Shown here: positions 671 to 40,921 of the stretch, one piece after another
Layout: each line of letters starts with the position of its first letter
Numbering within the stretch: position 1 is the first letter of the stretch
Source: Begonia masoniana
Lineage: Eukaryota; Streptophyta; Magnoliopsida; Cucurbitales; Begoniaceae
Length of the DNA stretch: 64,000 nt
Direction of reading: 5' to 3'
Assembly (NCBI GenBank): GCA_022432975.1
Contig: CM039515.1
Span: forward strand, 21,594,923-21,658,922
Position numbers and translations under genes: made by a program
Notes under the pieces: generated by a model
Databases searched by the model: none
The model's input: the letters and a program-made list of their open reading frames with translations, nothing else
Told to the model about the DNA's origin: nothing

Positions 671-688
671 GTGTCGACCAGAGTACAG
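671..688 (+). other. 18-nt microexon-like block in LTR A
   Basis: An acceptor-like GTGGTGTAG ends at 670. It is preceded about 40-55 bases upstream by the branch-site-like TTACTAAGCATTAGGC, and an 18-base block ending ACAG is followed by a donor-like GTGAGG at 689. Blocks of exactly 18 bases with the same borders occur at the same LTR position in families A, C (3' copy), D, E and H. The splice signals are seen in the sequence; actual splicing is inferred. Confidence 0.5.
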
Positions 689-1358: not shown

Positions 1359-1424
1359 GTAAGTATTTCTTTCCTTTTTAGTTGAGTTATTAACTAAGAT
1401 TAGATTGTTTGAACCTTTGTACAG
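1359..1424 (+). other. Putative leader intron before gag, element 1
   Basis: GTAAGT at 1359 and TTTGTACAG ending at 1424 bracket 66 bases that include TTAACTAAG, a plausible branch site. The same donor and acceptor occur just before gag in the other copies (49184-49246; 57957-58016; the minus copy near 33152-33215; and split in element 2). Conservation in diverged copies suggests a spliced leader, though splicing itself is inferred. Confidence 0.55.
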
Positions 1425-1436
1425 GATTAGACCAAA

Positions 1437-2120
1437 ATGCCAAGGAACCAAAGACAACCAGAGCGACCTAGAAGTGAACATGATGAATCAGTCAAACTTC
1501 TTATTGAATTGGTCAGTAAGCAGAAGGAGATGGTTGGGAGGCAAGGAGACTTAGTTGAATCGCTGTTAGGTCATGGAGGACCGGGACATATTGGAGCAAG
1601 TTCTAGTGGAGAGAGATTTCGGGGATTGAAGCCTCCAGCATTTGAAGGTCGTTTGACAGATCTGACAACTGCTGAAAGTTGGATATGCACCATTGAGAAT
1701 ATGTTTAATGTCGCTGAGGTAGAGGAAGAAAATAAGGTGAAGTGTGCAACATTCCACCTAGCTACCGATGCCCAACGCTGGTGGGAGACGGTGAAGGCTA
1801 CCACAGAGGCTCATACTATGACATGGAAAGAATTCAATGAGTTGTTTTTCGACAAGTATTACAACAAGACGGTCCAAGCTGCTAAGCGTATGGAATTTAT
1901 GGCTATAAAGCAAACAGGATCGGTAGGGGAGTATATTCAACAGTTGGAATCGTTGTCCCGATTTGCCAGCCACCTAGTTAGTTGGGAAGGAGACAAAATA
2001 TTTCATTTTGTGCAGGGCCTGAAGTCGGAGATTGAGATGCTGGTAAAGACATTCGGAGTTGAACAAATACCATTTAATCGAGTGGTGGCCAAAGCCTTAG
2101 AGGTGGAGGAAGCTATTGGT
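1437..2120 (+). pseudogene. gag: Gag, N-terminal part, element 1 (cut by satellite array)
   Basis: This is the N-terminal two thirds of a retrotransposon Gag (capsid) protein. It begins with an ATG 12 bases after the leader acceptor, MPRNQRQPERPR, a basic start seen in the sister copies. The plant Ty3/gypsy gag core follows: FRGLKPPAFEGRLTD, SWICTIENMF, and QRWWETVKA near residues 115-125. The frame is open until about residue 228, where the 35-bp satellite begins; the last ~30 residues of the open frame are translated satellite, not Gag. The zinc-knuckle part lies 9.4 kb away at 11504. About 30 residues seen in sister Gags between the two halves are missing. Gag packages the RNA and forms the virus-like particle in the cytoplasm; this copy cannot make a whole protein. 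Confidence 0.9.
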
Positions 2121-4632
2121 AAAATTTGTCATCCGGTCACTAAACGACAAAACATAAAATTTGTCATCCGGTCACTAAACGACAAAGCACAAGATCTGTC
2201 ATCCGGTCACTAAACGACAAAACATAAAATTTGTCATCCGGTCACTAAACGACAAAACATAAAATTTGTCATCCGGTCACTAAACGACAAAGCACAAGAT
2301 CTGTCATCCGGTCACTAAACGACAAAGCACAAGATCTGTCATCCGGTCACTAAACGACAAAACATAAAATTTGTCATCCGGTCACTAAACGACAAAGCAC
2401 AAGATCTGTCATCCGGTCACTAAACGACAAAACATAAAATTTGTCATCCGGTCACTAAACGACAAAACATAAAATTTGTCATCCGGTCACTAAACGACAA
2501 AACATAAAATTTGTCATCCGGTCACTAAACGACAAAACATAAAATTTGTCATCCGGTCACTAAACGACAAAACATAAAATTTGTCATCCGGTCACTAAAC
2601 GACAAAGCACAAGATCTGTCATCCGGTCACTAAACGACAAAACATAAAATTTGTCATCCGGTCACTAAACGACAAAACATAAAATTTGTCATCCGGTCAC
2701 TAAACGACAAAGCACAAGATCTGTCATCCGGTCACTAAACGACAAAGCACAAGATCTGTCATCCGGTCACTAAACGACAAAACATAAAATTTGTCATCCG
2801 GTCACTAAACGACAAAACATAAAATTTGTCATCCGGTCACTAAACGACAAAACATAAAATTTGTCATCCGGTCACTAAACGACAAAACATAAAATTTGTC
2901 ATCCGGTCACTAAACGACAAAACATAAAATTTGTCATCCGGTCACTAAACGACAAAACATAAAATTTGTCATCCGGTCACTAAACGACAAAACATAAAAT
3001 TTGTCATCCGGTCACTAAACGACAAAACATAAAATTTGTCATCCGGTCACTAAACGACAAAGCACAAGATCTGTCATCCGGTCACTAAACGACAAAGCAC
3101 AAGATCTGTCATCCGGTCACTAAACGACAAAACATAAAATTTGTCATCCGGTCACTAAACGACAAAACATAAAATTTGTCATCCGGTCACTAAACGACAA
3201 AACATAAAATTTGTCATCCGGTCACTAAACGACAAAACATAAAATTTGTCATCCGGTCACTAAACGACAAAACATAAAATTTGTCATCCGGTCACTAAAC
3301 GACAAAGCACAAGATCTGTCATCCGGTCACTAAACGACAAAACATAAAATTTGTCATCCGGTCACTAAACGACAAAACATAAAATTTGTCATCCGGTCAC
3401 TAAACGACAAAACATAAAATTTGTCATCCGGTCACTAAACGACAAAGCACAAGATCTGTCATCCGGTCACTAAACGACAAAACATAAAATTTGTCATCCG
3501 GTCACTAAACGACAAAACATAAAATTTGTCATCCGGTCACTAAACGACAAAGCACAAGATCTGTCATCCGGTCACTAAACGACAAAACATAAAATTTGTC
3601 ATCCGGTCACTAAACGACAAAGCACAAGATCTGTCATCCGGTCACTAAACGACAAAGCACAAGATCTGTCATCCGGTCACTAAACGACAAAGCACAAGAT
3701 CTGTCATCCGGTCACTAAACGACAAAGCACAAGATCTGTCATCCGGTCACTAAACGACAAAACATAAAATTTGTCATCCGGTCACTAAACGACAAAACAT
3801 AAAATTTGTCATCCGGTCACTAAACGACAAAACATAAAATTTGTCATCCGGTCACTAAACGACAAAACATAAAATTTGTCATCCGGTCACTAAACGACAA
3901 AACATAAAATTTGTCATCCGGTCACTAAACGACAAAACATAAAATTTGTCATCCGGTCACTAAACGACAAAACATAAAATTTGTCATCCGGTCACTAAAC
4001 GACAAAACATAAAATTTGTCATCCGGTCACTAAACGACAAAACATAAAATTTGTCATCCGGTCACTAAACGACAAAACATAAAATTTGTCATCCGGTCAC
4101 TAAACGACAAAACATAAAATTTGTCATCCGGTCACTAAACGACAAAACATAAAATTTGTCATCCGGTCACTAAACGACAAAACATAAAATTTGTCATCCG
4201 GTCACTAAACGACAAAGCACAAGATCTGTCATCCGGTCACTAAACGACAAAACATAAAATTTGTCATCCGGTCACTAAACGACAAAACATAAAATTTGTC
4301 ATCCGGTCACTAAACGACAAAACATAAAATTTGTCATCCGGTCACTAAACGACAAAGCACAAGATCTGTCATCCGGTCACTAAACGACAAAACATAAAAT
4401 TTGTCATCCGGTCACTAAACGACAAAGCACAAGATCTGTCATCCGGTCACTAAACGACAAAGCACAAGATCTGTCATCCGGTCACTAAACGACAAAACAT
4501 AAAATTTGTCATCCGGTCACTAAACGACAAAACATAAAATTTGTCATCGGTCACTAAACGACAAAACATAAAATTTGTCATCCGGTCACTAAACGACAAA
4601 ACATAAAATTTGTCATCCGGTCACTAAACGAA
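2121..4632 (-). repeat. 35-bp satellite array, about 72 units
   Basis: The unit is 35 bp, with the invariant part TGTCATCCGGTCACTAAACG. Two subtypes alternate irregularly: one has AACATAAAATTT at the unit junction, the other AGCACAAGATCT. Units are otherwise nearly identical apart from a one-base deletion near 4549, which points to recent homogenisation. The reverse complement of the core, TTTTGTCGTTTAGTGACCGG, matches the 61-bp array at 45562-47220 (18 of 20) and the 77-bp array of LTR C (19 of 20). Confidence 0.95.
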
Positions 4633-5586
4633 AAAATATATCCTTCATCTACCGGTGACGTCAGCCGGAAGATCTCTCTTATCCGGGCACTAGACGACAA
4701 ACAAAACACCTATATCATCCGACAAACAAAACACTCGACATCATCCGGTAGAAAAGAAACACAACACTATCCACAGAAAAGAATTTACTTACTTCCCAAA
4801 GACCATTCAGGAACGACTCAAGCCATAGCATTAATCAAATCCGATAAAAATCAACATTTAAAAACCAACCGACTGCTAAAATCAGTAAATTTCAAAACGT
4901 ATTCAAAATGCTAAATTCCTACTGTCATGAGAACTCAACATACTCAGACTGAATCCTTGACTACTAGTCCTCCACACTGACAGACATCAGTTAAACGCCC
5001 CGTCAGCTGCCAGAAATTGAATAAGTGTACTCCTCCAACCCGACTTGTCCTCAGTGAACTCAGTAAACACACCTGCTGTCACTCTTCTTCACCTCATCAC
5101 ACACTCATCTATTAGCCTAATGCTAAGTAAGTAATGCAGAAATGATATGAATTACTGAAACATAAACTCCTAAACATGCAGTTTCTACTTTCTCATCTCA
5201 GTTGTTCATTCATCGTTTCTGATACAGATCCCCCTGTGAAATTGGGAGTTGGATCAACTCTCCAAAGTATATATATCCACTGTCTCATTAAGGGGCGGAT
5301 TAATTCCCTTAATAGTAAATCTGATTCACATGTTCAGATCCCCCTGTGAAATTGGAAGTTGGATCAGCTCTTCCAAAGTATATATATCCACTGTCTCATT
5401 AAGGCGGAGTAATTCCCAAAAGTAAATTAAACAAAGCCATGTTAAAATAATCGTTGGCAATATTAAGAATCATTCAGTTGAGAAGCAAAGGTTTTAACTC
5501 GTAAAATAATTTAAAGATTTCAAAAGTCAATTTCATCGACCGCCGAACAAAGTCAGCAAAAAGGGAAGGCTGCTCGAAGACATCCA
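4633..5586 (-). mobile_element. Type C-like LTR fragment between two 35-bp arrays
   Basis: Read on the minus strand, this segment matches parts of the LTR at 55359-57873. About 5586-5410 resembles 57533-57730, just after the 77-bp array. About 5405-5225 holds two units of the CTAATCCGCCCCTTAATGAG / CAATTTCACAGGGGGATC repeat. The rest includes a TTACTTAGCATTAGGC block and a microexon region. The order is rearranged relative to an intact LTR, as expected after recombination between tandem arrays. TGACGTCA is at 4656-4663. There is no coding content. Confidence 0.65.
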
Positions 5587-5846
5587 CCGGTCACTAAACG
5601 ACAAAACATAAAATTTGTCATCCGGTCACTAAACGACAAAACATAAAATTTGTCATCCGGTCACTAAACGACAAAACATAAAATTTGTCATCCGGTCACT
5701 AAACGACAAAACATAAAATTTGTCATCCGGTCACTAAACGACAAAACATAAAATTTGTCATCCGGTCACTAAACGACAAAACATAAAATTTGTCATCCGG
5801 TCACTAAACGACAAAACATAAAATTTGTCATCCGGTCACTAAACGA
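5587..5846 (-). repeat. Short 35-bp satellite array, 7 full units plus a partial
   Basis: This is the same 35-bp unit as at 2121-4632, all of the AACATAAAATTT subtype. It ends in the same degenerate unit (CTAAACGAAAAAATATATCC) as the large array. The two arrays therefore share an array edge and one derives from the other by duplication of a larger block. Confidence 0.95.
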
Positions 5847-5984
5847 AAAAATATATCCTCATTACCGGTGGAAGTAAGCCGTATGATCCGCCATCCGATA
5901 GACTTAGTCTACATCCACCCCCCCCCGGTGACGTCATGCCGGGACGATCTCTCTTATCCGGGCACTAGCCGACAAACAAAACAC
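5847..5984 (-). other. Spacer with TGACGTCA palindrome between arrays
   Basis: About 140 bp separates the 35-bp and 25-bp arrays. It carries TGACGTCA at 5929-5936 and GATCTCTCTTATCCGGGCAC, both also found after the large 35-bp array (4656-4690). No gene is present. The palindrome is the core of plant TGA-type bZIP binding sites; a regulatory role is inferred. Confidence 0.6.
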
Positions 5985-8900
5985 CTACATCATCCGGTGA
6001 CTAAACATACTACATCATCCGGTGACTAAACATACTACATCATCCGGTGACTAAACATACTACATCATCCGGTGAGGAAACATACTACATCATCCGGTGA
6101 CTAAACATACTACATCATCCGGTGACTAAACATACTACATCATCCGGTGAGGAAACATACTACATCATCCGGTGACTAAACATACTACATCATCTGGTGA
6201 CTAAACATACTACATCATCCGGTGACTAAACATACTACATCATCTGGTGACTAAACATACTACATCATCCGGTGAGGAAACATACTACATCATCCGGTGA
6301 CTAAACATACTACATCATCCGGTGACTAAACATACTACATCATCCGGTGACTAAACATACTACATCATCCGGTGAGGAAACATACTACATCATCCGGTGA
6401 GGAAACATACTACATCATCCGGTGACTAAACATACTACATCATCCGGTGACTAAACATACTACATCATCCGGTGACTAAACATACTACATCATCCGGTGA
6501 CTAAACATACTACATCATCTGGTGACTAAACATACTACATCATCCGGTGACTAAACATACTACATCATCTGGTGACTAAACATACTACATCATCCGGTGA
6601 CTAAACATACTACATCATCCGGTGACTAAACATACTACATCATCCGGTGACTAAACATACTACATCATCTGGTGACTAAACATACTACATCATCCGGTGA
6701 CTAAACATACTACATCATCCGGTGAGGAAACATACTACATCATCCGGTGAGGAAACATACTACATCATCCGGTGAGGAAACATACTACATCATCCGGTGA
6801 CTAAACATACTACATCATCCGGTGACTAAACATACTACATCATCCGGTGACTAAACATACTACATCATCTGGTGACTAAACATACTACATCATCCGGTGA
6901 GGAAACATACTACATCATCCGGTGACTAAACATACTACATCATCCGGTGACTAAACATACTACATCATCCGGTGAGGAAACATACTACATCATCCGGTGA
7001 CTAAACATACTACATCATCTGGTGACTAAACATACTACATCATCTGGTGACTAAACATACTACATCATCCGGTGACTAAACATACTACATCATCCGGTGA
7101 CTAAACATACTACATCATCTGGTGACTAAACATACTACATCATCCGGTGACTAAACATACTACATCATCCGGTGACTAAACATACTACATCATCCGGTGA
7201 CTAAACATACTACATCATCCGGTGAGGAAACATACTACATCATCCGGTGAGGAAACATACTACATCATCCGGTGACTAAACATACTACATCATCTGGTGA
7301 CTAAACATACTACATCATCTGGTGACTAAACATACTACATCATCCGGTGACTAAACATACTACATCATCCGGTGACTAAACATACTACATCATCCGGTGA
7401 GGAAACATACTACATCATCCGGTGACTAAACATACTACATCATCCGGTGACTAAACATACTACATCATCCGGTGAGGAAACATACTACATCATCCGGTGA
7501 GGAAACATACTACATCATCTGGTGACTAAACATACTACATCATCCGGTGACTAAACATACTACATCATCCGGTGAGGAAACATACTACATCATCCGGTGA
7601 CTAAACATACTACATCATCCGGTGAGGAAACATACTACATCATCCGGTGAGGAAACATACTACATCATCCGGTGAGGAAACATACTACATCATCCGGTGA
7701 GGAAACATACTACATCATCCGGTGAGGAAACATACTACATCATCCGGTGACTAAACATACTACATCATCCGGTGAGGAAACATACTACATCATCCGGTGA
7801 GGAAACATACTACATCATCCGGTGAGGAAACATACTACATCATCCGGTGAGGAAACATACTACATCATCCGGTGACTAAACATACTACATCATCCGGTGA
7901 CTAAACATACTACATCATCCGGTGACTAAACATACTACATCATCTGGTGACTAAACATACTACATCATCCGGTGACTAAACATACTACATCATCTGGTGA
8001 CTAAACATACTACATCATCCGGTGAGGAAACATACTACATCATCCGGTGACTAAACATACTACATCATCCGGTGACTAAACATACTACATCATCTGGTGA
8101 CTAAACATACTACATCATCCGGTGAGGAAACATACTACATCATCCGGTGAGGAAACATACTACATCATCCGGTGAGGAAACATACTACATCATCCGGTGA
8201 GGAAACGTACTACATCATCCGGTGAGGAAACATACTACATCATCCGGTGACTAGACGTACTACATCATCCGGTGAGGAAACATACTACATCATCCGGTGA
8301 CTAGACGTACTACATCATCCGGTGACTAAACATACTACATCATCCGGTGACTAAACATACTACATCATCCGGTGACTAGACGTACTACATCATCCGGTGA
8401 CTAAACATACTACATCATCCGGTGACTAGACGTACTACATCATCCGGTGACTAAACATACTACATCATCCGGTGACTAGACGTACTACATCATCCGGTGA
8501 CTAAACATACTACATCATCCGGTGAGGAAACATACTACATCATCCGGTGACTAGACGTACTACATCATCCGGTGACTAAACATACTACATCATCCGGTGA
8601 CTAAACATACTACATCATCCGGTGACTAGACGTACTACATCATCCGGTGACTAGACGTACTACATCATCCGGTGAGGAAACATACTACATCATCCGGTGA
8701 CTAGACGTACTACATCATCCGGTGACTAAACATACTACATCATCCGGTGACTAAACATACTACATCATCCGGTGACTAAACATACTACATCATCCGGTGA
8801 CTAAACATACTACATCATCCGGTGAGGAAACATACTACATCATCCGGTGACTAAACATACTACATCATCCGGTGACTAGACGTACTACATCATCCGGTGA

Positions 8901-9703
8901 CTAAACATACTACATCATCCGGTGACTAGACGTACTACATCATCCGGTGACTAGACGTACTACATCATCCGGTGAGGAAACATACTACATCATCCGGTGA
9001 CTAAACATACTACATCATCCGGTGACTAAACATACTACATCATCCGGTGACTAAACATACTACATCATCCGGTGACTAAACATACTACATCATCCGGTGA
9101 CTAGACGTACTACATCATCCGGTGAGGAAACATACTACATCATCCGGTGACTAAACATACTACATCATCCGGTGACTAAACATACTACATCATCCGGTGA
9201 GGAAACATACTACATCATCCGGTGACTAGACGTACTACATCATCCGGTGACTAAACATACTACATCATCCGGTGACTAAACATACTACATCATCCGGTGA
9301 CTAAACATACTACATCATCCGGTGACTAAACATACTACATCATCCGGTGAGGAAACATACTACATCATCTGGTGACTAAACATACTACATCATCCGGTGA
9401 GGAAACATACTACATCATCCGGTGACTAAACATACTACATCATCCGGTGACTAAACATACTACATCATCCGGTGACTAAACATACTACATCATCCGGTGA
9501 CTAAACATACTACATCATCCGGTGACTAAACATACTACATCATCCGGTGACTAGACGTACAATCATCTGGTGAGGAACATACTACATCATCCGGTGACTA
9601 CAATCACTACATCATCCGGTGACTCAACGTACTATATACTACCGGTGACTAGACGTACTACCTCATCGGTTGACTAGAACGTACTCCATCATCCGGTGAC
9701 TAA
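5985..9703 (-). repeat. 25-bp satellite array, about 142 units
   Basis: The basic unit is CATACTACATCATCCGGTGA plus CTAAA, 25 bp. Variants are GGAAA for CTAAA, CTGGTGA for CCGGTGA, and CTAGACGTAC for CTAAACATAC. The CTGG variant is concentrated at about 6180-8100 and the AGACGTAC variant at about 8210-9560, so the array has zones of local homogenisation. The last ~140 bp (9561-9703) are degenerate units. The core CATCCGGTGACTAAAC resembles the core of the 35-bp unit, indicating a common LTR origin. Confidence 0.95.
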
Positions 9704-11503
9704 TTGTTCAACTTCTATCATTTTGACATCCGCCGATGACGTCAGCCGGATGATGCCTCATACAGCTTCTATCATAACGGCCGTAAAAACACTATAATCA
9801 TCAAACAACTTCATCCAATAGAAAATACCACAACTCACCCAAATCTTACTGGTAACTATAAACCTCAATGAGTAAGAATCATAGACTCATCCAGAATACA
9901 CATAGCGGAAGACTTAAGCAAAACAGACCATTCAATAATCTTTAAAATCATTATCAGACTCTGAAGTCTAATCAATCAAATCCGAATCTCATTGTTATAA
10001 GAAATTCTATTCTACTTAGACATCTGTTTATCATAAACTTCACTGACTAACTATGAGCATAACCAGGGGACTTAATCGCCTGTCCAGCCTTGGACTGTCA
10101 TACTGAGCATCCTCCAGCAACCAGCTTTAAACATCATCTCTGGATTGGAAATCCTCACCTGTTAGCTCTTCACCTACATCATAAGGTTTAACTATAAGCC
10201 TAATGCTTAGTAAGGAATGCAACACTAACATGGATGCATGAATGTATAATCCGGGAATCACATGCTCATAAGTCTTTTCTCGTTCTTATCTTTGCTCGTA
10301 ATCATCATTCATAATCATGGATCATATTCATCATTCATATTCATCATTCTTAATCATTAATCATATTCTTCATTTAAGTTGTGTGGATTAAGAGAGGATT
10401 TGTGCCGGTAAAGGGGGTTCGACAGTGAGTTTGATCTTGGTCCCTACTGCGGGTCGTATTCATATGTCCCTCTTTTGGACTGTGACATACGCCGAACCGC
10501 CCCCAACCCTCACTTAGTCCACGTTGCATAAGTTTTATCTTCTTACTTTGTTCATGAGAAAATCATGCTCTTAAAACATTTTCATATGCATAAAATAGTC
10601 ATGATGCAAGTATATGAAAACTCTTAGATCATCAAGCTACAGAATAGAGAACTATCCAACATGAAACCTTACCATTGAACTAATTATCAACATAAATGCT
10701 AGACAGTAACATAAAGAAACTTCTAATCATCGTATGAGTTCCTACCTAACATCCTTTGATGTAAGGTCCTAATGACCGAGAAACCTATACATTCACTTAC
10801 CTGGTCCCTTAGCAAAAATCTGAGTCTCTTCTCTTCGGACTTCTTTACCTAAAACATTTACATAGCAGTAGTTAAAACAAAAATTCTATTAGTTCTAATC
10901 ACAAGTCATCCTAGGGTCTAATAGCTAAAGTCATTCCCGAATCCATAGTTTAATACTCTGTGCAGTCTGAATCCAAAAACCAAAATAGACAGACCCGACT
11001 ATCGATTACTCAGGGTTGGTTATTTTAAATGTCCAGAATCGATTCGGAATGACATTACTGATCTCGGATTTTAAAATGTCCTTATTATTACTCGGCCATT
11101 GAAGAATCCAGAACTTCAACACCTAGCTGAAAATAGAGCTTAACGACTAACAGATAACTACATTGCCTATTTCATACCTTGGGTGTGGATTCGTAGGGAA
11201 TGCAGGCCTGAAGCCGGGCGTCGACGAGAAGGATCACTGGTAACAGAGAGCGAGAGCTCGGGAGAGAAGAAATCACCGAGAGTAGAAGATGTCGGCTACA
11301 GTGGTTTAAATGAGGTTTGAATCCTTTCCATTTTCTTTAAATACCGGTCTCAATCCTCCATTATTACAACTTTGCCACTCAACCTAGTTTAAATCCACAT
11401 GAAATTAATTAAGCTTAGCCTAAAATTATAAACCGTGAAGATTGAATATTCGTGACCGTTAAAACAGTTAGGAAGTCACCTGGTCGTCTTGTCGTGTGTT
11501 ACA
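9704..11503 (-). mobile_element. Minus-strand LTR, 5' portion (type G-like)
   Basis: Read on the minus strand from 11503, it starts TGTAACAC and follows the order of the LTR at 42078-44545. Landmarks are a leader with CTCCCGAGCTC near 11255, an exon-like block ending CCAG|GTAAGTGAATG near 10795, the GGGGGTTCGACAGTGAG region at 10400-10510, and the CCTTACTAAGCATTAGGC block near 10205. The 15-nt microexon-like block is at 10159-10173. It then runs into the arrays; TGACGTCA is at 9737-9744. Many indels relative to family G show that it is a diverged member. Confidence 0.8.
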
Positions 11504-13943: not shown

Positions 13944-14171
13944 GTAAGTAGCGGATGTGTGTGGTTTGCCTTCGGGCCCTACACCATGGAACGTAGGTAA
14001 TTGGTTTTTGCTTTGTTTGATTGTTTTGTTTAGTTTTGTGTTGAGTATTGTAATTGTGTGACATGCATCACGGTTTTCAAACTACGAGAACCGAGTTTTA
14101 AGCATGGTTTTGCATGGTGAGCTTGAACCGTAAGGGATGGTGTGAGTTGAATCGGAGGTGGTTAGTGTCGG

Positions 14172-16702
14172 AGTTAAGGTGGTACCTGCGAGGGACCATA
14201 GTTGAGTTGGGTCGCCTAGTCGCGTTAGGGTAGCACCTGCGGGAAACTCCATGGCATGGAGTTGTCCAGTCGCGTTAAGGTGGTACCTGCGAGGGACCAT
14301 AGTTGAGTTGGGTCGCCTAGTCGCGTTAGGGTAGCACCTGCGGGAAACTCCATGGCATGGAGTTGTCCAGTCGCGTTAAGGTGGTACCTGCGAGGGACCA
14401 TAGTTGAGTTGGGTCGCCTAGTCGCGTTAGGGTAGCACCTGCGGGAAACTCCATGGCATGGAGTTGTCCAGTCGCGTTAAGGTGGTACCTGCGAGGGACC
14501 ATAGTTGAGTTGGGTCGCCTAGTCGCGTTAAGGTGGTACCTGCGAGGGACCATAGTTGAGTTGGGTCGCCTAGTCGCGTTAAGGTGGTACCTGCGAGGGA
14601 CCATAGTTGAGTTGGGTCGCCTAGTCGCGTTAGGGTAGCACCTGCGGGAAACTCCATGGCATGGAGTTGTCCAGTCGCGTTAAGGTGGTACCTGCGAGGG
14701 ACCATAGTTGAGTTGGGTCGCCTAGTCGCGTTAGGGTAGCACCTGCGGGAAACTCCATGGCATGGAGTTGTCCAGTCGCGTTAAGGTGGTACCTGCGAGG
14801 GACCATAGTTGAGTTGGGTCGCCTAGTCGCGTTAGGGTAGCACCTGCGGGAAACTCCATGGCATGGAGTTGTCCAGTCGCGTTAAGGTGGTACCTGCGAG
14901 GGACCATAGTTGAGTTGGGTCGCCTAGTCGCGTTAGGGTAGCACCTGCGGGAAACTCCATGGCATGGAGTTGTCCAGTCGCGTTAAGGTGGTACCTGCGA
15001 GGGACCATAGTTGAGTTGGGTCGCCTAGTCGCGTTAGGGTAGCACCTGCGGGAAACTCCATGGCATGGAGTTGTCCAGTCGCGTTAAGGTGGTACCTGCG
15101 AGGGACCATAGTTGAGTTGGGTCGCCTAGTCGCGTTAAGGTGGTACCTGCGAGGGACCATAGTTGAGTTGGGTCGCCTAGTCGCGTTAAGGTGGTACCTG
15201 CGAGGGACCATAGTTGAGTTGGGTCGCCTAGTCGCGTTAGGGTAGCACCTGCGGGAAACTCCATGGCATGGAGTTGTCCAGTCGCGTTAAGGTGGTACCT
15301 GCGAGGGACCATAGTTGAGTTGGGTCGCCTAGTCGCGTTAAGGTGGTACCTGCGAGGGACCATAGTTGAGTTGGGTCGCCTAGTCGCGTTAGGGTAGCAC
15401 CTGCGGGAAACTCCATGGCATGGAGTTGTCCAGTCGCGTTAAGGTGGTACCTGCGAGGGACCATAGTTGAGTTGGGTCGCCTAGTCGCGTTAGGGTAGCA
15501 CCTGCGGGAAACTCCATGGCATGGAGTTGTCCAGTCGCGTTAAGGTGGTACCTGCGAGGGACCATAGTTGAGTTGGGTCGCCTAGTCGCGTTAAGGTGGT
15601 ACCTGCGAGGGACCATAGTTGAGTTGGGTCGCCTAGTCGCGTTAGGGTAGCACCTGCGGGAAACTCCATGGCATGGAGTTGTCCAGTCGCGTTAAGGTGG
15701 TACCTGCGAGGGACCATAGTTGAGTTGGGTCGCCTAGTCGCGTTAAGGTGGTACCTGCGAGGGACCATAGTTGAGTTGGGTCGCCTAGTCGCGTTAAGGT
15801 GGTACCTGCGAGGGACCATAGTTGAGTTGGGTCGCCTAGTCGCGTTAGGGTAGCACCTGCGGGAAACTCCATGGCATGGAGTTGTCCAGTCGCGTTAAGG
15901 TGGTACCTGCGAGGGACCATAGTTGAGTTGGGTCGCCTAGTCGCGTTAGGGTAGCACCTGCGGGAAACTCCATGGCATGGAGTTGTCCAGTCGCGTTAAG
16001 GTGGTACCTGCGAGGGACCATAGTTGAGTTGGGTCGCCTAGTCGCGTTAAGGTGGTACCTGCGAGGGACCATAGTTGAGTTGGGTCGCCTAGTCGCGTTA
16101 GGGTAGCACCTGCGGGAAACTCCATGGCATGGAGTTGTCCAGTCGCGTTAAGGTGGTACCTGCGAGGGACCATAGTTGAGTTGGGTCGCCTAGTCGCGTT
16201 AAGGTGGTACCTGCGAGGGACCATAGTTGAGTTGGGTCGCCTAGTCGCGTTAAGGTGGTACCTGCGAGGGACCATAGTTGAGTTGGGTCGCCTAGTCGCG
16301 TTAGGGTAGCACCTGCGGGAAACTCCATGGCATGGAGTTGTCTAGTCGCGTTAAGGTGGTACCTGCGAGGGACCATAGTTGAGTTGGGTCGCCTAGTCGC
16401 GTTAGGGTAGCACCTGCGGGAAACTCCATGGCATGGAGTTGTCCAGTCGCGTTAAGGTGGTACCTGCGAGGGACCATAGTTGAGTTGGGTCGCCTAGTCG
16501 CGTTAGGGTAGCACCTGCGGGAAACTCCATGGCATGGAGTTGTCCAGTCGCGTTAAGGTGGTACCTGCGAGGGACCATAGTTGAGTTGGGTCGCCTAGTC
16601 GCGTTAGGGTAGCACCTGTGGGAAACTCCATGGCATGGAGTTGTCCAGTCGCGTTAAGGTGGTACCTGCGAGGGACCATAGTTGAGTTGGGTCGCGTAGT
16701 CG
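14172..16702 (+). repeat. 51/50-bp two-type tandem array, 50 units
   Basis: Two related units alternate: X (51 bp, with AAGGTGGTACCTGCGAGGGA) and Y (50 bp, with AGGGTAGCACCTGCGGGAAA). I count 31 X and 19 Y. Runs of X before each Y read 1,1,1,3,1,1,1,1,3,2,1,2,3,1,2,3,1,1,1, then a final X. The pattern 2,3,1 occurs twice in a row, and 456-bp spacings link Y units at 15032, 15488, 15944 and 16400. Each Y contains the perfect dyad ACTCCATG-G-CATGGAGT. Long open frames on both strands here are by-products of the repeat. Confidence 0.93.
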
Positions 16703-17023
16703 CGTTAGAGTGACACCTGCGGGGGACTCCAGTGGAGTTGCCTAGTCGCGTTAGGGTGGCACTTGCGTGGGACACTGTGTGAGTTGGACACCTGCGAGGG
16801 ACTCCGTGTGAGTTGCCTAGTCGCGTTAAGGTGCGGTGTTAGCATTTGTGATGAGTTTCGGTTATGTGAATGAACAACGAAAAGCAACGAGTAGCAAACG
16901 AAAGAACAGCAACTGAGTGAGTAGAAACCTCATCTGTTAGGGGTTGTGTTGCATTATGTTTGTTGTATGCATATTTCCCTACTTACTAAGCATTAGGCTG
17001 ATGTTTTGTGTTCCGTGGTGTAG

Positions 17024-17041
17024 GTGCAGACGGGAGTACAG
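17024..17041 (+). other. 18-nt microexon-like block in LTR D
   Basis: It is preceded by TTACTAAGCATTAGGC and the acceptor GTGGTGTAG, and ends ACAG before GTGAGG. Length and borders equal those of LTR A although the two LTRs differ widely elsewhere. Confidence 0.5.
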
Positions 17042-19064: not shown

Positions 19065-21623
19065 TGTAACACCCGAGAAATTCTTACAACGTGCGTAGCT
19101 TTAGATGTGTTATGTTAAGTAGTAAAATTAGAGTGAAAATTTAGAAGAGGAATTTGAGAGAAAATCTTAGGATTATGTGGTTGGAAGGTTTTGTTAAATT
19201 AAAGTTTATGTAAAGTAAAAAGTAAAGAGATCAAGTAGAAGACAAGGAAAAGGAGAAGGCTTCGACGTGGGTTAAAGTGATGAAAAGTTGTGGGTTGTTA
19301 TATAAAAAGGAGAGAATTGATTGAAAAGTCAAAAGAGTAATGGACCAATAGAAAGAAATGAAATAGGAGGGTTGAAAAGTCAAATAGATAAACCAAAAGA
19401 AATAAAAAGTGAAAATGTGGGAGTGAAGAGAAGGTTTCACGTTTGTTGAATTGTGAAGAGAAAAGTGGAGGGTGTTTTACAAATTTCTAAAGTTTGGTGG
19501 TGGAAATTAGGAAAAGTCAAAAATGTGTTTTTAAATGTGTGAAGTGGAAGGAATAAAAGACAAAAACCCATTGTCCTCTCCGTATTTTCTTCCACGAAAA
19601 CCAGCAGCAAGAAGTGAGTTCTCCCTCCACGTTTTCCCCATTTTTTTTCCAAGATTCAAGGTTAGTTTTAGTTGGGTTTTTAGTTTTATGCATATTAGTA
19701 GTGGTTTTTTTAGTTTTGAATGGGATTTAGTGAGTTTTGGGAGGAGTTTTGAAACCCTAAAGGGTGAAGTCCGAAATTCCCTTTCTTTTGTTGGTTTTCT
19801 TCCTACTTTTGATGATTTAAACATTTGAGATGATAGTTTAGATTGTTTATGAAGTTAGATTAGTAAGATTGTGAAAGTTGTGCAAAAACCGGATTTTTGG
19901 AGTATATGGCTGAATCTGTTTTTGGGGTTTTGGTTCAGCCAAGTTGTTTGGTTGCTTAAATTAAGTGCTTCAATGAATAGTAGACATGTAGAGGTTTCTG
20001 AGTTGGGGTGGCACGTCGAAATCCGTTGAAAACGAGAAAGTTATGGCCGTTTGAAGTTGGACGTTGTAAATTTTGGTGAAAATTGAGTTTTGTGGTTTTA
20101 GAGGGAATTGTTGTTTAGTTTTGGTTTTAGAATCCTTTAGAAATTTATAAGTGAATTGATTGATTGAAGTTTGATGATGAAAAGTGTGGGTAATTTCGGG
20201 TTTGTTGTACATTTTGGTAAAATTTGCCCTTAGTTTTATCTTAGGCTATCTTAGGCATGCCCTTAGTTTTATCTTAGGCTATCTTACGCAAGTCTTTTGA
20301 ATTCTTAGAGTGTGCTAAGTTGTTTTCCTTATATTGTTAGGTTAACGAGAGAACAATTGGACCGACCGAGCTTTTAGTTACGAGCATGCGCAAGGAATCC
20401 AGGTAAGTAGTGGACCGCTTGTGTTTTGCCTTCGAGCCTACACCATGGAACGGTAGGGAAATTGTTTCCTTGGTTGTTTATTTTGTCTTGTGTTGTGCAT
20501 TGTATGTGACATGCATCACGGTTTTCAAACTACGAAATACGCGTTTTGAGCATTGTTTGCAAATTGTGAAAATGAACTGTAAAGATATGTGAGGCAGTGT
20601 GTTTGTGTGAGTCACCTTGTCGCGAATTAGTGTCTGAAAGTATGACAGTTCGGGAGGTGTTTGTGTGAGTCACTTCGTATCAAATTAGTGTCTGAAAGTA
20701 TGACAGTTCGAGAGGTGTTTGTGTGAGTCATCTCGTCGCGAATTAGTGTCTGAAAGTATGACAGTTCAGGAGGTGTCTCTCGGTGAGTTGATAATGAACG
20801 AGGTTCATTGATCGACGTGGGAGAAAATCATGTATGGCCGTCCCGTGTGTGAACACGATGTGTGCCTCGAGTGAGAGTGTTGAGTAATGAATTAAGAACG
20901 AGTTGAACACAACCGAGAGTTAGAAACTGCATGTATTAGGGTTGTGTGTGAGGGTTGTTTGTGAAGTGTGCATTGTGCTTTCGTATGCATTATTCCCTAC
21001 TTACTAAGCATTCGGCTTACGTTTTGTGTTCCGTGGTGTAGGTGTCGACCGGAGTACAGGTGAGGGCCTTAAGGAAAGCTAAAATTGGGACGCAGTTGGT
21101 GATGTACGGGGCATGCCGGTGCGGGCAGTTGTCGAGGCGTCTCGACCATGGTCTTCGGGGGAGATGTGAGACTTTGTATTTTGGGTAGTTTATTGTAGAT
21201 GTCTGTTGATGTTTTTAAAGTTATTGATATTTGTTGTATATAGTCATAGATAAGGGTGATGTGTCCCCCCTATATTGTGAATTTTCTTCATTTAGGGATG
21301 TTAGTATCATAGTTTCCCCTTTTACTATTATTTGAAGATTTCGTATGCTGGATAGTTGAGTAAGAATATTCTGTATCTGGTTGGGAATTGGTTTGTGTGC
21401 AGGTACTTAACATTTTGGAGGCGCCATTTTCAGGCGTTACTTTGCCAAAATTTTCGGGAAGGACGCCGTGGTGCTTAAAGTTTTGGATTAAAGGAAATTA
21501 GTGAGTATAGGCAGCTAGGTATGACATAGGGGAGCTCCGGGAGAGTTAGTTTTAAATTATGTTTTAACGCGGGATAGCTTAGCAAAGTAGCATACCGTTC
21601 CCGGGCGGGTTCGGGGCGTTACA
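19065..21623 (+). mobile_element. 3' LTR (type A) of element 1
   Basis: It starts TGTAACACCC after the PPT and ends GTTACA; length 2559 bp. It contains a TATA box (19299), the conserved GTGGCACGTCGAAATCCGTT block near 20008, an exon-like block (20341-20402, donor GTAAGT at 20403), 58-bp repeats (about 20600-20780) and an 18-nt microexon (21042-21059). It is followed by CGCAG and then a different LTR end, which suggests that element 1 inserted into LTR B; the matching CGCAG would lie upstream of the window. Confidence 0.9.
19299..19310 (+). promoter_or_regulatory. TATA box of LTR A
   Basis: TATATAAAAAGG lies 235 bp into the LTR, a good plant TATA match. The equivalent region is deleted from the second LTR A copy at 38744. 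Confidence 0.55.
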
Positions 21624-21979
21624 CGCAGTGAGCGCGCGCAGGGTGCGGGGCGCGATCGGCGGAGGCGATTAATCGCTAACCCGCGGCGATCGATCGCGAT
21701 CGCAAGCCTCTCGGGCACTGTCAGCGGCGATCGATCGCCACCAAGAGGGAAAAAAAGAATTTTTTTTATTTAAATTTTACTATTTCAAAATAATTTACCC
21801 CGACATTTTCCGACGTATTTTAAACGTATTTCATGCACGTTTTCCAATATTTTTAGAGGGTTCGAAAAACCCAAAAAACCGAGTTGAATAATTTACAAAA
21901 ATTATTTTAAACGTCATTTTAAACGCTGGATAGCTTAGCAAAGTAGTGTACCGAGCCGGGTCGGGTTTGTGGCGTTACA
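21624..21979 (+). mobile_element. 3' remnant of LTR B (5' LTR of element 2)
   Basis: This 356-bp LTR end begins directly after LTR A with CGCAGTGAGCGCGCG and ends GTTACA followed by a PBS. It contains the GCGATCGATCGCGATCGC dyad block and the conserved LTR terminus. It has a second copy at 40555-40918. Confidence 0.85.
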
Positions 21980-21982
21980 AGT

Positions 21983-21994
21983 TGGTATCAGAGC
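21983..21994 (+). other. Primer binding site (tRNA-iMet) of element 2
   Basis: TGGTATCAGAGC lies three bases after the LTR B end, followed by the leader AAAAGTGGTCGAG shared with other copies. Confidence 0.95.
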
Positions 21995-22039
21995 AAAAGT
22001 GGTCGAGTCGTTCAAAGGATTACCCGACAATGCCGGTCG

Positions 22040-24554
22040 TGTAACGCCCCCGAACCCACCCCGGTTCGGTGCGCTACTTGGCTCACTCTAACCCCAATGA
22101 AAACGACATTTAAAACTAATTTAAAATAATTTTTCATAAACCCTAAATCATAAAATAAAACTGACACAACAGAATTTAAAACTAAATCTCTCGAAGCTCT
22201 CTTATGTCATACCTAGCTGCCTGGACTCACTAATTCCCTTACTCCTAACCTTTAAGCACCACGACGTCCTTCCCAAAATTTCGGCAAAGTAACGCCTGAA
22301 AATGGCGCCTCCAAAATGCTAGGTACCTGCAAACGAATAAATCCCACCAATCCAGAATATTCTTACTCAACTATCCACATACGAAATCTCCAAATGACAG
22401 TAAAGAGAGAAACTATACTACTAACATCCTTAAGTGAAGAAAATTCACAGTATAGGGCGACGCATCACCATTAACTATGACTATATACAACAATACAATA
22501 ACTCTCAAAACATCAACCAAAAAGAAAGTTACGCATTCCCATCATTTCTACAAACAGACATTTACAATAAACTACCAAAAGACAGCCCACATCTCCCAAA
22601 GACCATGGTCGAGACGCCCCGACAATTGCCCTCACCGGCGTGCCCCGTGTGCCACCAACTGCCGCCTAATCCTGGCTCCCTCGTCTAGCTCACCTGTAAC
22701 CGCATCGTTACCTACACCACAGAACACACACACACACGTAAGCTTACGCTTAGCAAGTAGGGAATGACAAATGCGACTAAACAAAATGCAACTTCTACAC
22801 TCTAGGCTGGTTTCAATTACATTCTCTTTTTATTAATCAGTTACCCGTGCATCTTTCATAGAGACCCTCCCGAGGTGCTCCTCGAGCACTACTCCCCGGC
22901 GAAGGTTCTCTTCTCAATATCACGGCTCCTCATAGAGATCCTTCCGAGGTGCTCCACGAGCACTACTCCCCGGCAAGGCAGCCATACTCGTTATCACTAT
23001 CACAACACAACTCTTGTAGAGACCCTCCCGAGGTGCTCCACGAGCACTACTCCCCGGCGAGGCAACTCTACTCGCTAACACTGCCTAGTGCAATGCATCC
23101 CTTGCAGGGACCCTCCCGAGGTGTTCCATGAACACTACTCCCCAGTGAGGCAACCCGACTTGTAGAGATCCTCCCGAGGTGCTCCACGAGCACTACTCCC
23201 CGGCGAGGCAACTCGACTTGTAGAGACCCTCCCGAGGTGCTCCACGAGCACTACTCCCCAACGAGGAAACTCTACTCGGGATCACAATGCATTTCTCATT
23301 ATTTCTATACATTTAATGCTCACTCCTTAAACCTGTGCTCACAACTCATTTTTCATGGCGCAAAAACCCTGACGCATGCCACACAATGCATAACATACAA
23401 TAAAACACAACAAGCAAACAACCAAACACAATCCACAACATAAAATAAAACACCACAAGCAAACAACCAAACAAACAAACATCCTTACCGTTCCGTGGTG
23501 TAGGCCCAAAGGCAACAAAATAAACAATCCTCTACTTACCTGCTGTCTCGGTTCGTGCTTGCTTACTTCGTCCAACCAAATTTACACGCTCGATCACTTA
23601 AAATAACGAAAACTTAACTTAGTAATATCCTAGAGGATTCTAAAGAAATCAACTAAACCAAGCAAAAACAAACTTTTCAACCTAAACGCTCAAACCCGAT
23701 TTTTATGTAAATTCTACCGCAAAAGTTCAAACGGTCATAACTTTCTCGTTTTTCAACGGATTTTGACGTGCCACCCCAATCCGTAAACATCTACACGTCT
23801 ATTATCCATTAAAATACTCAAATTAACCATCCAAATAATTTGACCAACCAGAAATTCACAAAACAGATTCGGCCCTCAATGCTTTCAAAAACTGATTTTT
23901 CACAACTTCCGCAAAATCCCCACTCTAGCTCCATAAACCACCTAAACTCACCCCTCTAACATTTAAAACACTAAATCTAGAAAGAAAACTAACCAAGAAC
24001 CATAATTTTCGGAATCCCCATTTAGGGTTTTCCAAACCCTAGCAAATCTTCACTAAAACATTTAAAAAAACACTAAAATCACCCTATAGATGTATTATTA
24101 TCAAAACCCACTTAAACTCTTGCCTTAAACCTTGAAAAAGCTTGATAAAATGAAGAAGATGGAGGCTTCAATGGCTTCCAATGTCGTGGATAGGAGGAAG
24201 AAGAAGGAAATGGGTTTTTGCCATTAATTCACCTAACTTTACCAATTTATAAAAAAAACATTTTCCTCTTTTTGTTTTTAACCACTAACTTTCTAAAATT
24301 TCAAAACACCACCAATATTCATTTGCCTCACATTTCTCACGTGGTACACCCCCATTTCAATCCCTTTTTTTTATTTCTTTTAATTAAAACAACCAATCAA
24401 CCACAATTCTCTCTTAACCTTTATTAGTTTTCTCACAAATTCTCTTTTTCTAAATTAATTGCTAGAAAAACTCTAAAATCAAGGTTATGTTCTTCTAGTG
24501 TAATTAAATCTAAGGTAACCCATAGTTAAGGAAAAAAAAATCCTAGGTGTTACA
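22040..24554 (-). mobile_element. Solo LTR, type E, minus strand, in element 2 leader
   Basis: On the minus strand it starts TGTAACACCT (from 24554) and ends at 22040 (GTTACA inverted as TGTAACGCCC). It is flanked by GGTCG (22035-22039) and GGCCG (24555-24559), an imperfect 5-bp target duplication. Length 2515 bp. It contains six ~58-75-bp repeats (about 22862-23280), an 18-nt microexon-like block (22694-22711), and the conserved ATCCGTTGAAAAACGAGAAA block near 23760. The same insertion at the same site is present in copy 2 (40979), so it predates the duplication. Confidence 0.9.
22862..23280 (-). repeat. Tandem repeat of LTR E, six units
   Basis: Six imperfect units contain CCGAGGTGCTCCACGAGCAC or variants followed by TACTCCCCGGCGAGGCA. 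The array sits in the intron-like position between the donor (near 23535 on the minus strand) and the microexon. Confidence 0.85.
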
Positions 24555-24604: not shown

Positions 24605-27263
24605 TGTAACACTCGGATTTTTCGGGTTTCCGCTCGCAGGGGTACTTTCGTAAATGAGCAAATTAAGATTTCTTCTTGAGAGGGATGTTTCACTAGAATC
24701 CTAGTAATTAATTATGAGGGTTTGAGAGATAAAGAAAAGTTTCGAGGAATTTGAATTATTAACGTCCGAGTTTCCAACTTTTCGCTATATAGTTTTGTAT
24801 TAGTAAAAATAGTAAATTAAATCCGTTTTACGAACGGAGAGTTTCGTTAGAGCCCTAGAAATAAGTTGGAATATTTGGAGGAATAAAGGAGTTTCGGAGA
24901 AACCAAATTAATAGACGAAATAATGGTTTAAGTTAAGAAATTAAGTGAGGGTAAAATAGTAATTTAGAAAATCAAAAACTTTAATTAAATAGGGTTTTCT
25001 CTCTCCCTCCCCCCCTCACTTTTCCTCTCCCTCACGCGAGCCTCCCATTTTCCTTCCCCCTTGGCGATTTTCTTCTCTTCTCCATCGCCATCTCCAACGT
25101 CGATCTACTCCTCCATTTTAGGCGATTTCTCATTCAAGTTTCTTCAACAAAACAAGGTGCTAGGTAAGTTCTACACTCTAGACAAATTTATTTGAGGTTT
25201 TAGGGTTTGTTTTGAGTTAGGGTTTGTGATGAAATTTAGGGGGTTTTGTTAGAAATCGTTAGGGTTGTTTATTTATTACTCATTGGTGATGTATTAGTGA
25301 TTATTGAGGTTGTTGGAGTAGATTAAGGGTGTTGGTTGAGGTTTAATGTTAAGTTTTGGTTGATGGAAATGTAGATTGACACCATTAATGGAGTTTTGAA
25401 GTTGGTGAGCACCAAGTGCTCGATGTAATGTCTGAATGAAATGAATTAGAGGTTTTAGAAGAATTTGTCCTAGCTCGAGACGTCGATTTGTTTAGATTTG
25501 ATGTTTGAGAGTCGATATTAATGGTTTATTGTTAAATGCCCTAGTTGACTCAAGCTCAACGGACGGTGCTCGGCGTATCTAGGACGCCAGGTAAGTGGAT
25601 GTTAGGTTTCCGGCCCTTAAGGCCCTACATCGTGTCAACGCTAGGCTTTTCTGTTTTGATGATGATTTTCTGATTGTGGGGCTTAATGAATCGGGTAGCC
25701 TAGGATGTTAGCTATTAGATGTTTGTAAAGTTTGTCAAAAGTAATGTATGTCTATGTATGTTGTGAATTGTTTGATGATATGTCTTGATGATATGTTGTA
25801 CGTAGATTACCTCATGCATCATGTTTTATAAAAAGTACGAAAATGTTTTAGCATATGTTTTCACGATTTGAACGTAGAAACGACAACGATGTAAAATGAA
25901 AATGTAAAGTGTCTGAGGGAAGTGGTTCACCCTTCAGATGTAAATTGTGGAACGTCCAGAAAACGTATGATATCTGAGGGAAGTGGTTCACCCTTCAGAT
26001 AAAGATGTATATGTAGAACGTCTAGAGATGGAGAAACTAATCCGCCCTCCATTGGTAGAGGATTACATGTATGTACGATGAAACGAAATGAAACGATTAT
26101 GAACGATGAAACGAAACGAAATGATTATGTACGATGAAACTGTAGAAACTGCATATGTTAAGTAAAACGTTTTAAATTCATATAGTGCATTCCCTTACTA
26201 AGCATTAGGCTTAATGTATATGTTGTATGATGTAGGTGACAGGTTGAAGGTGAGAGTTCCTGTCAATGACAAAGAATAGATGGTTGACGGATGGTGCTCG
26301 TGGCGACGGGGTGTGTTTTGGCATGGTTCAGTGACTTGGGTATGCTCCGAGCTTTTTGGGTAATTAATGTGAAGTTGTTTTATGTTAGAAATGTAAGGGA
26401 TTTTAAGATATGTAAGGGTGTTTGATAGGTTGGAATTTGTTTAGTGGATGTGGGCTTGGAGTCGTGTCATTTTGAATGATTTGGTGACGGGTTTGTTTTA
26501 AGAATGTTTTTAAAGAAATTCCACTTTTACCGTTCGATGTTATTTGAGGATTTGTTTGGGTTTTAATTGATGATTATAGGTGATTTATAACTGTAGGGAT
26601 TGACTCGGTTTTAGATCGATCCATGCAGTTTGTTTTCACGAATTTAAAACACGTGATCGAGTACGTTGAGTCGGGTTTTTTTTTTAGGAGATTGAATTAT
26701 GGTGGGTTTATGGTATTTGGGAATGTTTTTGGAGTGTTAAGTGTATATGGTAAGGGGTAAGTGAGAATGGTGTAAAGAAGGTGTGAGAAAGGAGATGAAG
26801 TGTGAGTTTTGGGTTATGTTTGTGGAGTGCAGGGGCGAAGGATGAAGAAAAATGGAAGAAGAAGAAAAAGAGGGAGGAAGAGCTGCGCTCTCTGGAGGAA
26901 TTCCAGAGAGCGTGGCGATTGCTTGCCTCTGGGAGGCGAGCAATCGCCTCCTCCTCTGCCTGGCATCGCTCAGGCGATTGCCAGGCGAGGTAACAATCGC
27001 CAGGAGGCGATTGCTCGCCAGGAGCAATCGCCACCTCCTCTGGCATTTAAAAAAAAAATGTTTTAAATAAATTGTTTTCTTTATTAATTAATTGTTTTAT
27101 TGTTTAAAGTTTATTGTTTTAGTAATTGTTCTAAATGACTTACTAAACGAACTCCGATTTCTATTTCGATTTCGGCTCCGATTTAGATTTCGCTTTATGT
27201 ACAGTTAAAGTAAGAGATTGTAGGAAAAAAAAAATACTAAGGGTACGGGTAAGGGTTGTGACA
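24605..27263 (+). mobile_element. Solo LTR, type F, inside the leader intron of element 2
   Basis: It starts TGTAACACTC and ends TTGTGACA, and is flanked by TCTAG at 24600-24604 and 27264-27268. Copy 2 keeps the empty site (CTCTAGTTAG near 49200), which proves the insertion. Length 2659 bp. It holds a pyrimidine-rich leader (24995-25080), donor GTAAGT near 25164, exon-like block near 25556-25590, a 61-bp repeat in two units (25912 and 25973), the TTACTAAGCATTAGGC block near 26192, a 14-nt microexon (26236-26249) and a block of GCGATTGC dyads (26880-27030). Confidence 0.93.
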
Positions 27264-40554: not shown

Positions 40555-40918
40555 CGCAGTGAGAGCGCGCAGGGTGCGGGGCGCGCAAGGCGTGATCGGC
40601 GGAGGCGATCAATCGCTCACCCGCGGCGATCGATCGCGATCGCAAGCCTCTCGGGCACTGTCAGCGGCGATCGATCTCCACCAAGAGGAAAAAAAGATTT
40701 TTTTTTATTTAAATTTTACTATTTCAAAATAATTTACCCCGACATTTTCCGACGTATTTTAAACGTATTTCACGCATGTTTTCCAATATTTTTCGAGGGT
40801 TCGAAAAACCCAAAAAACCGAGTTGAATAATTTACAAAAATTATTTTAAACGTCATTTTAAAAGCAGGATAGCTTAGCAAAGTAGCGCACCGAGCCGGGT
40901 CGGGTTCGGAGCGTTACA
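40555..40918 (+). mobile_element. Second copy of LTR B remnant
   Basis: It equals 21624-21979, starting CGCAGTGAGAGCGCG after LTR A and ending GTTACA before a PBS. A small insertion in the GC block (GCGCAAGGCGTGATCGGC) distinguishes it from copy 1. Confidence 0.85.
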
Positions 40919-40921
40919 AGT

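Follow-up and report, generated by a model that had tools for sequence, protein, structure and literature searches.

Here, we describe two predicted, crossing helices that enclose a putative intron in the long terminal repeats (LTRs) of Ty3/gypsy retrotransposons of Begonia masoniana. The DNA analysed, referred to below as the window, is a stretch of 64,000 nt of contig CM039515.1 (assembly GCA_022432975.1, positions 21,594,923 to 21,658,922). Splice-like borders, the lineage-matched complementarity of both helices and their sense-strand polarity can be read directly from the sequence. We consider it probable that these LTRs contain a spliceosomal leader intron, whose splicing would be restrained by a pseudoknot, keeping part of the genomic RNA unspliced; that splicing occurs, in which direction it is controlled and that transcripts are divided into genome and messenger are what we infer from this arrangement.

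The arrangement is illustrated by copy A2 on the plus strand, in which splice borders are marked by a slash. The intron starts with approximately 12 bases, GUAAGU among them, that can pair with a block ending in CUUAC directly before a hairpin, P4. We refer to this helix as P0; in A2, its arm a coincides with the 5' splice site CCAG/GTAAGT (20403-20414), and its arm a', ending in CTTAC, lies at 20993-21004. The second helix, P2, joins the 14 bases ending at the acceptor AG with a block that is located 29-37 nt downstream of the donor in the window copies (A2 arm b, CTACACCATGGAAC, 20438-20451; arm b', ending in the 3' splice-site TAG, 21028-21041). Arm b is adjoined by a hairpin stretch, P1 (20424-20437), which reads GCC-TTCG-AGC with one mismatch in A2 and GCC-TTCG-GGC in A3, and arm a' is followed by P4, TAAGC-ATTCG-GCTTA (21005-21019). 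A putative microexon of 18 nt (21042-21059) and the donor GTGAGG come next. The arms follow one another along the RNA in the order a, b, a', b'. P0 and P2 therefore cross and form a pseudoknot that covers both splice sites. By our own count, a clear G+C-rich P1 stem of 3-4 pairs precedes arm b in 34 of 43 copies, with variants such as GGCC with GGCC, GGTC with GACC and GGCT with AGCC. P4 occurs as TAAGC with GCTTA or TTAGC with GCTAA, and as TGAGC with GCTCA in contig L007 (see below); it has mismatches in D, H2 and C5.

Structure was counted in the 12 LTR copies of the window that have both halves paired, and in 60 copies fetched from the 795-Mb home genome, in 51 of which a donor was located. 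The genome copies were selected by an exact P4 match from the first listed places on one contig, with some near neighbours skipped, so that UUAC plus P4 is fixed in them by the sampling design. In the genome search, the pattern covered 16 variants of the donor but just [CT]AG/G as acceptor. Donor and arm b were located by patterns independent of pairing, in which the first six letters of b were restricted; at some of these six places the arm-b pattern permitted G.U changes, but not A.C. For permutations, the 51 genome copies were joined with 11 of the 12 window copies (A3 was left out), giving 62 copies. The window copies are not all independent: A2/A3 and E1/E2 are part of near-identical duplicated stretches, and each of the pairs H1/H2 and C5/C3 appears to be the two LTRs of one element.

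When arms were permuted among the 62 copies, P0 in its own arrangement reached a z of -10.2 (0 of 5000 permutations), with an energy per copy of -12.4 kcal/mol for own arms versus -9.5 kcal/mol for permuted ones; in the 51 genome copies alone, the z was -8.7. GUAAG lies opposite a fully pairing CUUAC, UUUAC or CUUGC in 60 of 62 copies, the UUAC of the genome copies being fixed by sampling. The signal is carried by the variable parts of P0 outside the splice-site consensus, for example GAAUGU with GCAUUC, GAGUGU with GCACUC, GAGCGU with ACGCUC, UAGUGG with CCCUAC and UAAAG with CUUUA. For P2, the z was -11.1 in the 62 copies and the energy per copy -15.4 versus -10.9 kcal/mol; none of 20,000 permutations matched the own arrangement in the 51 genome copies, and with five window lineages it was the best of 120 permutations for two choices of copies. 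The 3' arm found no equally good partner among all other 55-nt segments (449-972 per copy) in 10 of the 12 window copies, the exceptions being E2 (8 of 1655 segments) and G (26 of 488); the same was true of 26 of the first 31 usable genome copies. The spacer between donor and arm b is 29-37 nt for window introns of 464-6492 nt, and 29-39 nt for introns of 485-1953 nt in the 51 genome copies. P2 positions 1 and 2 are paired in 43 of 43 copies, with letters restricted by the arm-b pattern. In a best-duplex search, P0 and P2 were each 9 bp or longer in all 12 window copies and in 50 of the 51 from the genome. In a tree-based test, compensatory changes in P0 came to 1.5 vs 0.0 at +8, 2.9 vs 0.5 at +9 and 1.0 vs 0.0 at +10, and in P2 to 3.0 vs 0.0 at position 6, 1.8 vs 0.2 at position 9 and 1.7 vs 0.0 at position 10. 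Positions 7-8 of P2 contain 22 G.U and 0 A.C oppositions in 48 distinct copies, an excess that fits a sense RNA. Over all eight positions there are 33 G.U and 2 A.C (25 and 4 in another count); the wobble argument is limited to positions 7-8 because the arm-b pattern is biased at the first six places.

Ten control region pairs gave z values of -1.6 to +3.4. A candidate third helix, P3, of GUAGGGAA with UUCCCUAC, looked promising in A, D, E and H; it had a z of -0.1 without lineage-matched signal and was dropped. Rfam returned 0 matches at gathering thresholds in the window, where large loops could hide one, and one chance-level match (E 0.7) for the C5 intron. A self-splicing group I or II intron, or a described ribozyme, was rejected for want of an Rfam match. 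Spliceosome-independent (self-cleaving or self-splicing) activity is conceivable, if unlikely, as each splice site is predicted to lie at a helix end beside a short hairpin.

The sequence-only reading had noted exactly 18 bases between an acceptor-like TAG and a donor-like GTGA in diverged LTR families, with some shorter blocks. The blocks are present at the positions it gave; those of E, H and K (the 10159 copy) lie on the minus strand. The interval from [CT]AG to GTGA measures 18 bases in A (671, 21042, 39950), D (17024), E, H and C3 (63545), as against 14 in F and 15 in G and K. The block of C5 (56362) is of the 18-base length too, with CAA/GTGAAT as the donor of this copy. The upstream exon-like block ending in CCAG/GTAAGT is likewise there, with variants in E and H1: GTAAGT is found in 13 of 14 listed window donor blocks, H1 having GTAGGC and the decayed G2 being left out of the count. 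The donor is located 464-6,492 nt upstream of the [CT]AG/G acceptor in the 12 window copies. Persistence of the 18-nt length holds for the A, D, E, H and C families of the window, but not for the genome sample, in which the distance from the acceptor to the next donor-like site (GTRAG or GTTAG) is 15 nt in 46 of 60 copies, 18 in 5 and 17 in 1, with none found in 8. The short exon thus has a length divisible by three (15 or 18 nt) in 51 of the 60 copies (L051-L110), unlike exon 2. The proposal that borders are better kept than interiors holds relative to the short-exon interior, but in some pairs the P4 block is no better conserved than its surroundings; identities across 14 family pairs range over 0.64-1.00 for the donor, 0.68-1.00 for the P4 block and 0.70-1.00 for the second donor versus 0.43-0.79 for the short-exon interior and 0.41-0.82 for other flanks.

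In the genome sample, the acceptor is [CT]AG/G in 60 of 60 copies and the donor GTAAGT in all 51 that were located, and the borders are those of a U2-type GT...AG intron with consensus donor and acceptor. The core 16-mer TTACTAAGCATTAGGC has 13,345 exact occurrences in the 795-Mb genome (6,693 + 6,652) and its reversed control none. When up to 3 mismatches are allowed, the window contains 10 occurrences, compared with an expectation of 0.45 from shuffled sequence, and diverged forms of the block are present in E and H (TTGCTAAGCGTAAGC) and in H2 (TTGCTAAGCGTAAAC); the donor 10-mer CCAGGTAAGT is found 15 times with up to 1 mismatch, compared with 3.9 expected. The block around TTACTAAGCATTAGGC had been taken for a branch site. 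Judging from its lineage-matched complementarity, it is mainly the P0 partner of the 5' splice site together with hairpin P4, and we replaced the plain branch-site assignment by this reading. A branch point may lie within the P0/P4 block. Branch points usually fall 18-50 nt before the AG. CUUAC (CUUGC in H2) precedes the exon by 38-41 nt in 7 of the 12 window copies; for A2, A3, E1, E2 and H1, the CUUAC selected automatically was one further downstream, at 23-28 nt.

The elements that carry this structure are Ty3/gypsy LTR retrotransposons, with LTRs, primer-binding site (PBS), polypurine tract and a gag-pol order of protease, reverse transcriptase, RNase H and integrase. Successive open reading frames (ORFs) of the C element match gag, RVP_2, RVT_1, RNase H, Integrase_H2C2 and SH3_Tf2-1 domains; the domain search of these ORFs gave no match to a chromodomain. 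The PBS TGGTATCAGAGC was found at four other places of the window, a polypurine tract precedes TGTAACACCC in H and A2, and the LTRs that could be bounded (H, A2 and C5) are approximately 2.5-3.0 kb each. Pol proteins are 40-69% identical to the best 120 of 7,982 scored homologues, of which the named ones are mostly angiosperm, and the elements likely belong to the Tekay/Del clade.

Of 31 genome copies, 10 have a TATAWAW word 517-557 nt upstream of the donor of the structured intron, 4 more have one at 594-616 nt and 5 elsewhere; 12 lack such a word within 1 kb. Promoter and exon 1 were judged by eye, and in some copies only. Exon 2 extends to the donor; its length is 46-62 nt in four window copies and, in the genome sample, 45-48 nt in 43 of 51, and its T fraction in the four window copies is 0.19-0.22 versus 0.29-0.41 in the flanking introns. 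A scan of the sequence also detected a second putative leader intron, GTAAGT...TACAG, after the PBS and before the gag ATG (1359-1424, plus strand), with further copies from 57957 (plus strand) and from 33215 (minus strand); a short intron-like stretch between PBS and gag start was present at 3 of the 5 PBS-bearing places scanned. The TATA words, exon 2 and the intron-like stretch after the PBS suggest that transcription starts upstream of the structured intron.

We propose that the LTR carries a gene-like 5' leader consisting of a promoter, exon 1, an intron, an exon 2 of approximately 45-62 nt, the structured intron and an exon of 14-18 nt. In the sense RNA, GUAAGU and the next approximately six bases would pair with the CUUAC-ending block before P4, and the block 29-39 nt past the donor, beside P1, would pair with the 14 bases ending in the 3' AG, with everything between the arms, tandem arrays included, looped out. 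The fold would hold both splice sites closed, so that a share of the transcripts stays unspliced as genomic RNA, which the life cycle of LTR retrotransposons requires; where it is unformed or melted, the leader would be spliced for translation. Because both splice sites are located inside helices, splicing would need the fold to open. Masking of the splice sites is most likely the role of the structure, and bridging of the intron by a zipper-like stem is the main rival. A bolder version of our proposal, that a pseudoknot present in thousands of LTRs, with a built-in complement of the 5' splice site that acts as a cis mimic of U1 and a helix at the 3' site, locks a whole intron as a splicing switch between genome and messenger and represents a new kind of retroelement control RNA, appears rather unlikely to us at present.

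If the helices instead promoted splicing, they would loop out the arrays and bring donor, branch region and acceptor together, as the zipper stem of yeast RPS17B does. This is a real possibility, although an unlikely one: P2 spans introns of very different length while the donor-to-arm spacer stays at 29-37 nt, and the principle is established for RPS17B according to the accessible text (PMC2536676). The RPS17B pairing is described there as having its arms between the 5' site and the branch site. A stem of this type leaves both splice sites free. In the LTRs neither site is free, as the 5' splice site itself is paired in nearly all copies and the last intron bases are paired at P2 positions 1-2, with the restriction on letters mentioned above. 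One might also speculate that the structure is a signal for packaging, dimerisation or export of genomic RNA, which happens to touch the splice sites. All four structural parts lie between donor and acceptor, and a spliced RNA would therefore lose them, as such a signal would demand; for packaging alone, there is no need for helices that reach the first and last intron base in nearly every copy, and we regard this as quite improbable.

Explanations that do without a functional RNA fold fare worse. P2 resembles a 14-bp terminal inverted repeat in A, E and H, and the arms could be remnants of an old DNA transposon or an introner-like insertion, kept as DNA. This is highly improbable, given that the arms differ between lineages and are yet complementary, with bulges and G.U pairs, that a' and b' belong to two crossing pairs, and that inspection of the A copies by eye revealed no flanking duplication. 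That consensus splice sites and family kinship explain the complementarity without any shared structure is hardly credible: GUAAG and CUUAC are consensus-like and control windows show some inflation by kinship, but the signal is carried by the variable parts outside the consensus and the true pairs are far beyond the controls.

Several observations weigh against the masking pseudoknot. The permutation null ignores kinship among copies and, because the copies are related, is somewhat liberal, as illustrated by six windows near P0 with z values of -4.4 (overlapping P0), -3.8, -2.7, -2.2, +0.3 and +1.4; the signal is moreover a sum over copies. Compensatory changes in the tree-based test mostly point in the right direction, but no site reaches the 6 pairs needed for significance, P2 position 8 has none, and, in the fixed register of that test, about 10 of 43 rows lack pairing at P0 positions +10 and +11. 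For only 6 of 31 genome copies does the own 3' arm outrank every other partner, and for 19 it ranks within the top four. When whole introns were folded without constraints, the minimum free energy structure included P2 in 6 of 10 window copies (D and E2 being too long), and the mean probability of P2 is 0.57 in C5 and 0.00 in F, G and K. No donor block was present within 3.2 kb in 9 of 60 genome copies. A search of the 795-Mb genome for spliced retrocopies, with the A/D-type junction of exon 2 and microexon and up to 3 mismatches allowed, returned 0; the window has none either, its only matches, at 5 mismatches, being unspliced donors. Finally, a role in packaging or export fits the same structure.

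The remaining copies of the window are as follows. On the plus strand, A1 retains a putative microexon of 18 nt (671-688) and arm b at 4-17, its donor lying before the window start, and the A3 intron (39311-39949) precedes a microexon at 39950-39967 in the duplicated stretch shared with A2. The D intron (13944-17023, 3080 nt) has arm b at 13979-13992, arm b' at 17010-17023 and a microexon at 17024-17041. A 101-bp tandem array of approximately 26 copies (14173-16787) lies wholly inside it, with the flanking pairing arms intact. C5 (intron 55897-56361) and C3 (63081-63544) are followed by an 18-nt block at 56362-56379 and a microexon at 63545-63562, respectively, F (25591-26235) by a 14-nt block at 26236-26249, and G (42779-43437), in which P2 is weakened, by a 15-nt block at 43438-43452. 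On the minus strand, where the first exon base is the higher coordinate, the introns are those of E1 (22712-23539; microexon 22694-22711, first base 22711), E2 (41651-48142; 41633-41650, first base 41650), H1, a 3' LTR with its donor decayed to GTAGGC (28455-29224; 28437-28454, first base 28454), H2, a 5' LTR (34360-35234; 34342-34359, first base 34359), and K (10174-10800; 15-nt block 10159-10173, first base 10173). The second E copy seems to be split by a nested G-type insertion at 42078 to about 47734, across which the two E2 halves were assigned by us. Four further places are partial: B (55155-55197, plus strand) has donor, P1 and arm b without a 3' half in the window, I (53056-53102, minus strand) has only donor, a P1-like hairpin and arm b, G2 (45459-45510, plus strand) is a decayed 5' half with donor TGAAGT at 45459 and P1 and arm b kept, and J (5092-5132, minus strand) has CTTAC, the P4 hairpin and a decayed acceptor GAG/G without a 5' half being found.

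The duplicated stretches, 19848-23139 and 38743-42077, are 95.6% identical and include nested A and E LTR pieces. A further tandem array at 45562-47220 consists of 27 copies of a 61-bp unit with 100% matches, which suggests a very recent expansion. Very long arrays are also located at 2120-4640, 5587-5855 and 5985-9703. The 35-bp arrays (x72 and x7.7) contain CCGGTCACTAAACGACAAA and the 25-bp array (x149) the related CCGGTGACTAAACATA; as the reverse-strand word GTCGTTTAGTGA is present in C and G LTRs, these satellites may derive from LTR sequence.

Plant-like Ty3/gypsy contigs L004-L009, L024 and L028 are apparent contaminants in prokaryote assemblies (e.g. Mycobacterium, Streptomyces and Solirubrobacter). 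In the LTR family of L006 and L007, a predicted P0 recurs with different letters: the donor GTAAGGTTC (L006:6224) has its exact complement before a P4-like hairpin (L006:479, L007:1111), which is followed by a polypyrimidine acceptor and, 13 nt later, another GTAAGT. Of the 1,895 nine-mers tested in this part of the LTR, the donor's is the only one whose complement occurs within the 100 nt preceding the acceptor. P2 is not clearly present in this family, with a possible 5-bp match by eye. The L006 donor also lies in a local 8-bp hairpin, GTAAGGTT-CTAC-AACCTTAC (6224-6243), predicted to be a second way of hiding the 5' splice site. In L028 and L024, apparently one LTR family, the complement of the donor GTGAGTCA is found 51 nt before an acceptor-like TATAG/GTGG; as one of 4 such eight-mers among 1,066, it is weaker than the L006/L007 case. 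L004 has a donor without a complement in the sequence at hand. Of three scans of viral contigs for relatives, one yielded three stretches that look chance-like by eye, one yielded no relative and one a single candidate stretch, L042.

Some transcripts of plant LTR retrotransposons have to stay intact for reverse transcription and others are translated, and we know of no answer to how most Ty3/gypsy elements divide their RNA. If our proposal is correct, a splice-site fold would be a concrete answer for a very abundant superfamily and would illustrate that, in nature, a pre-mRNA pseudoknot can mask an intron in its entirety; it would also caution that introns in LTR 'leaders' may go unnoticed in annotation. 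In the HIV-1 leader, RNA structure sequesters the major 5' splice site. There too, the fold of a retroelement hides a 5' splice site and could balance genomic and spliced RNA; the sequence and fold are unrelated, the LTR structure would mask the acceptor as well, and its function is predicted only.

Among plants, Ogre, EVADE, BARE1 and the sunflower elements Tyran and Varan are spliced LTR retrotransposons that, like the proposed system, balance spliced and unspliced RNA. According to the accessible text of these papers, the introns of Ogre, EVADE and BARE1 are located within gag or pol or between the two, and those Tyran splices that were detected by Sanger sequencing fall within its ORF; none is described there as an LTR leader intron with a conserved pseudoknot (PMC12786077, PMC6317226, PMC3735527, PMC7730604). 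In the literature covered, mostly open papers and in part excerpts (PMC11209495 included), we found no description of introns within plant LTRs or of a pseudoknot over their splice sites. Plant microexons of up to 15 nt are widespread as identified with RNA-seq, judging from the accessible text (PMC8831610); the short LTR exons are of similar size, the LTR blocks being known from sequence alone. Conserved intronic complementarity near splice sites is shared with human introns, for which conserved long-range base pairs have been catalogued, as far as the accessible text describes (PMC8052449). These human pairings are many and gene-specific, unlike one structure repeated on a mobile element. 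In the RPS17B (RP51B) intron, complementary intronic segments pair across the intron and affect splicing (PMC2536676, accessible text), as would the LTR arms, but the LTR structure differs in having both splice sites inside helices that cross one another and in being hosted by an LTR.
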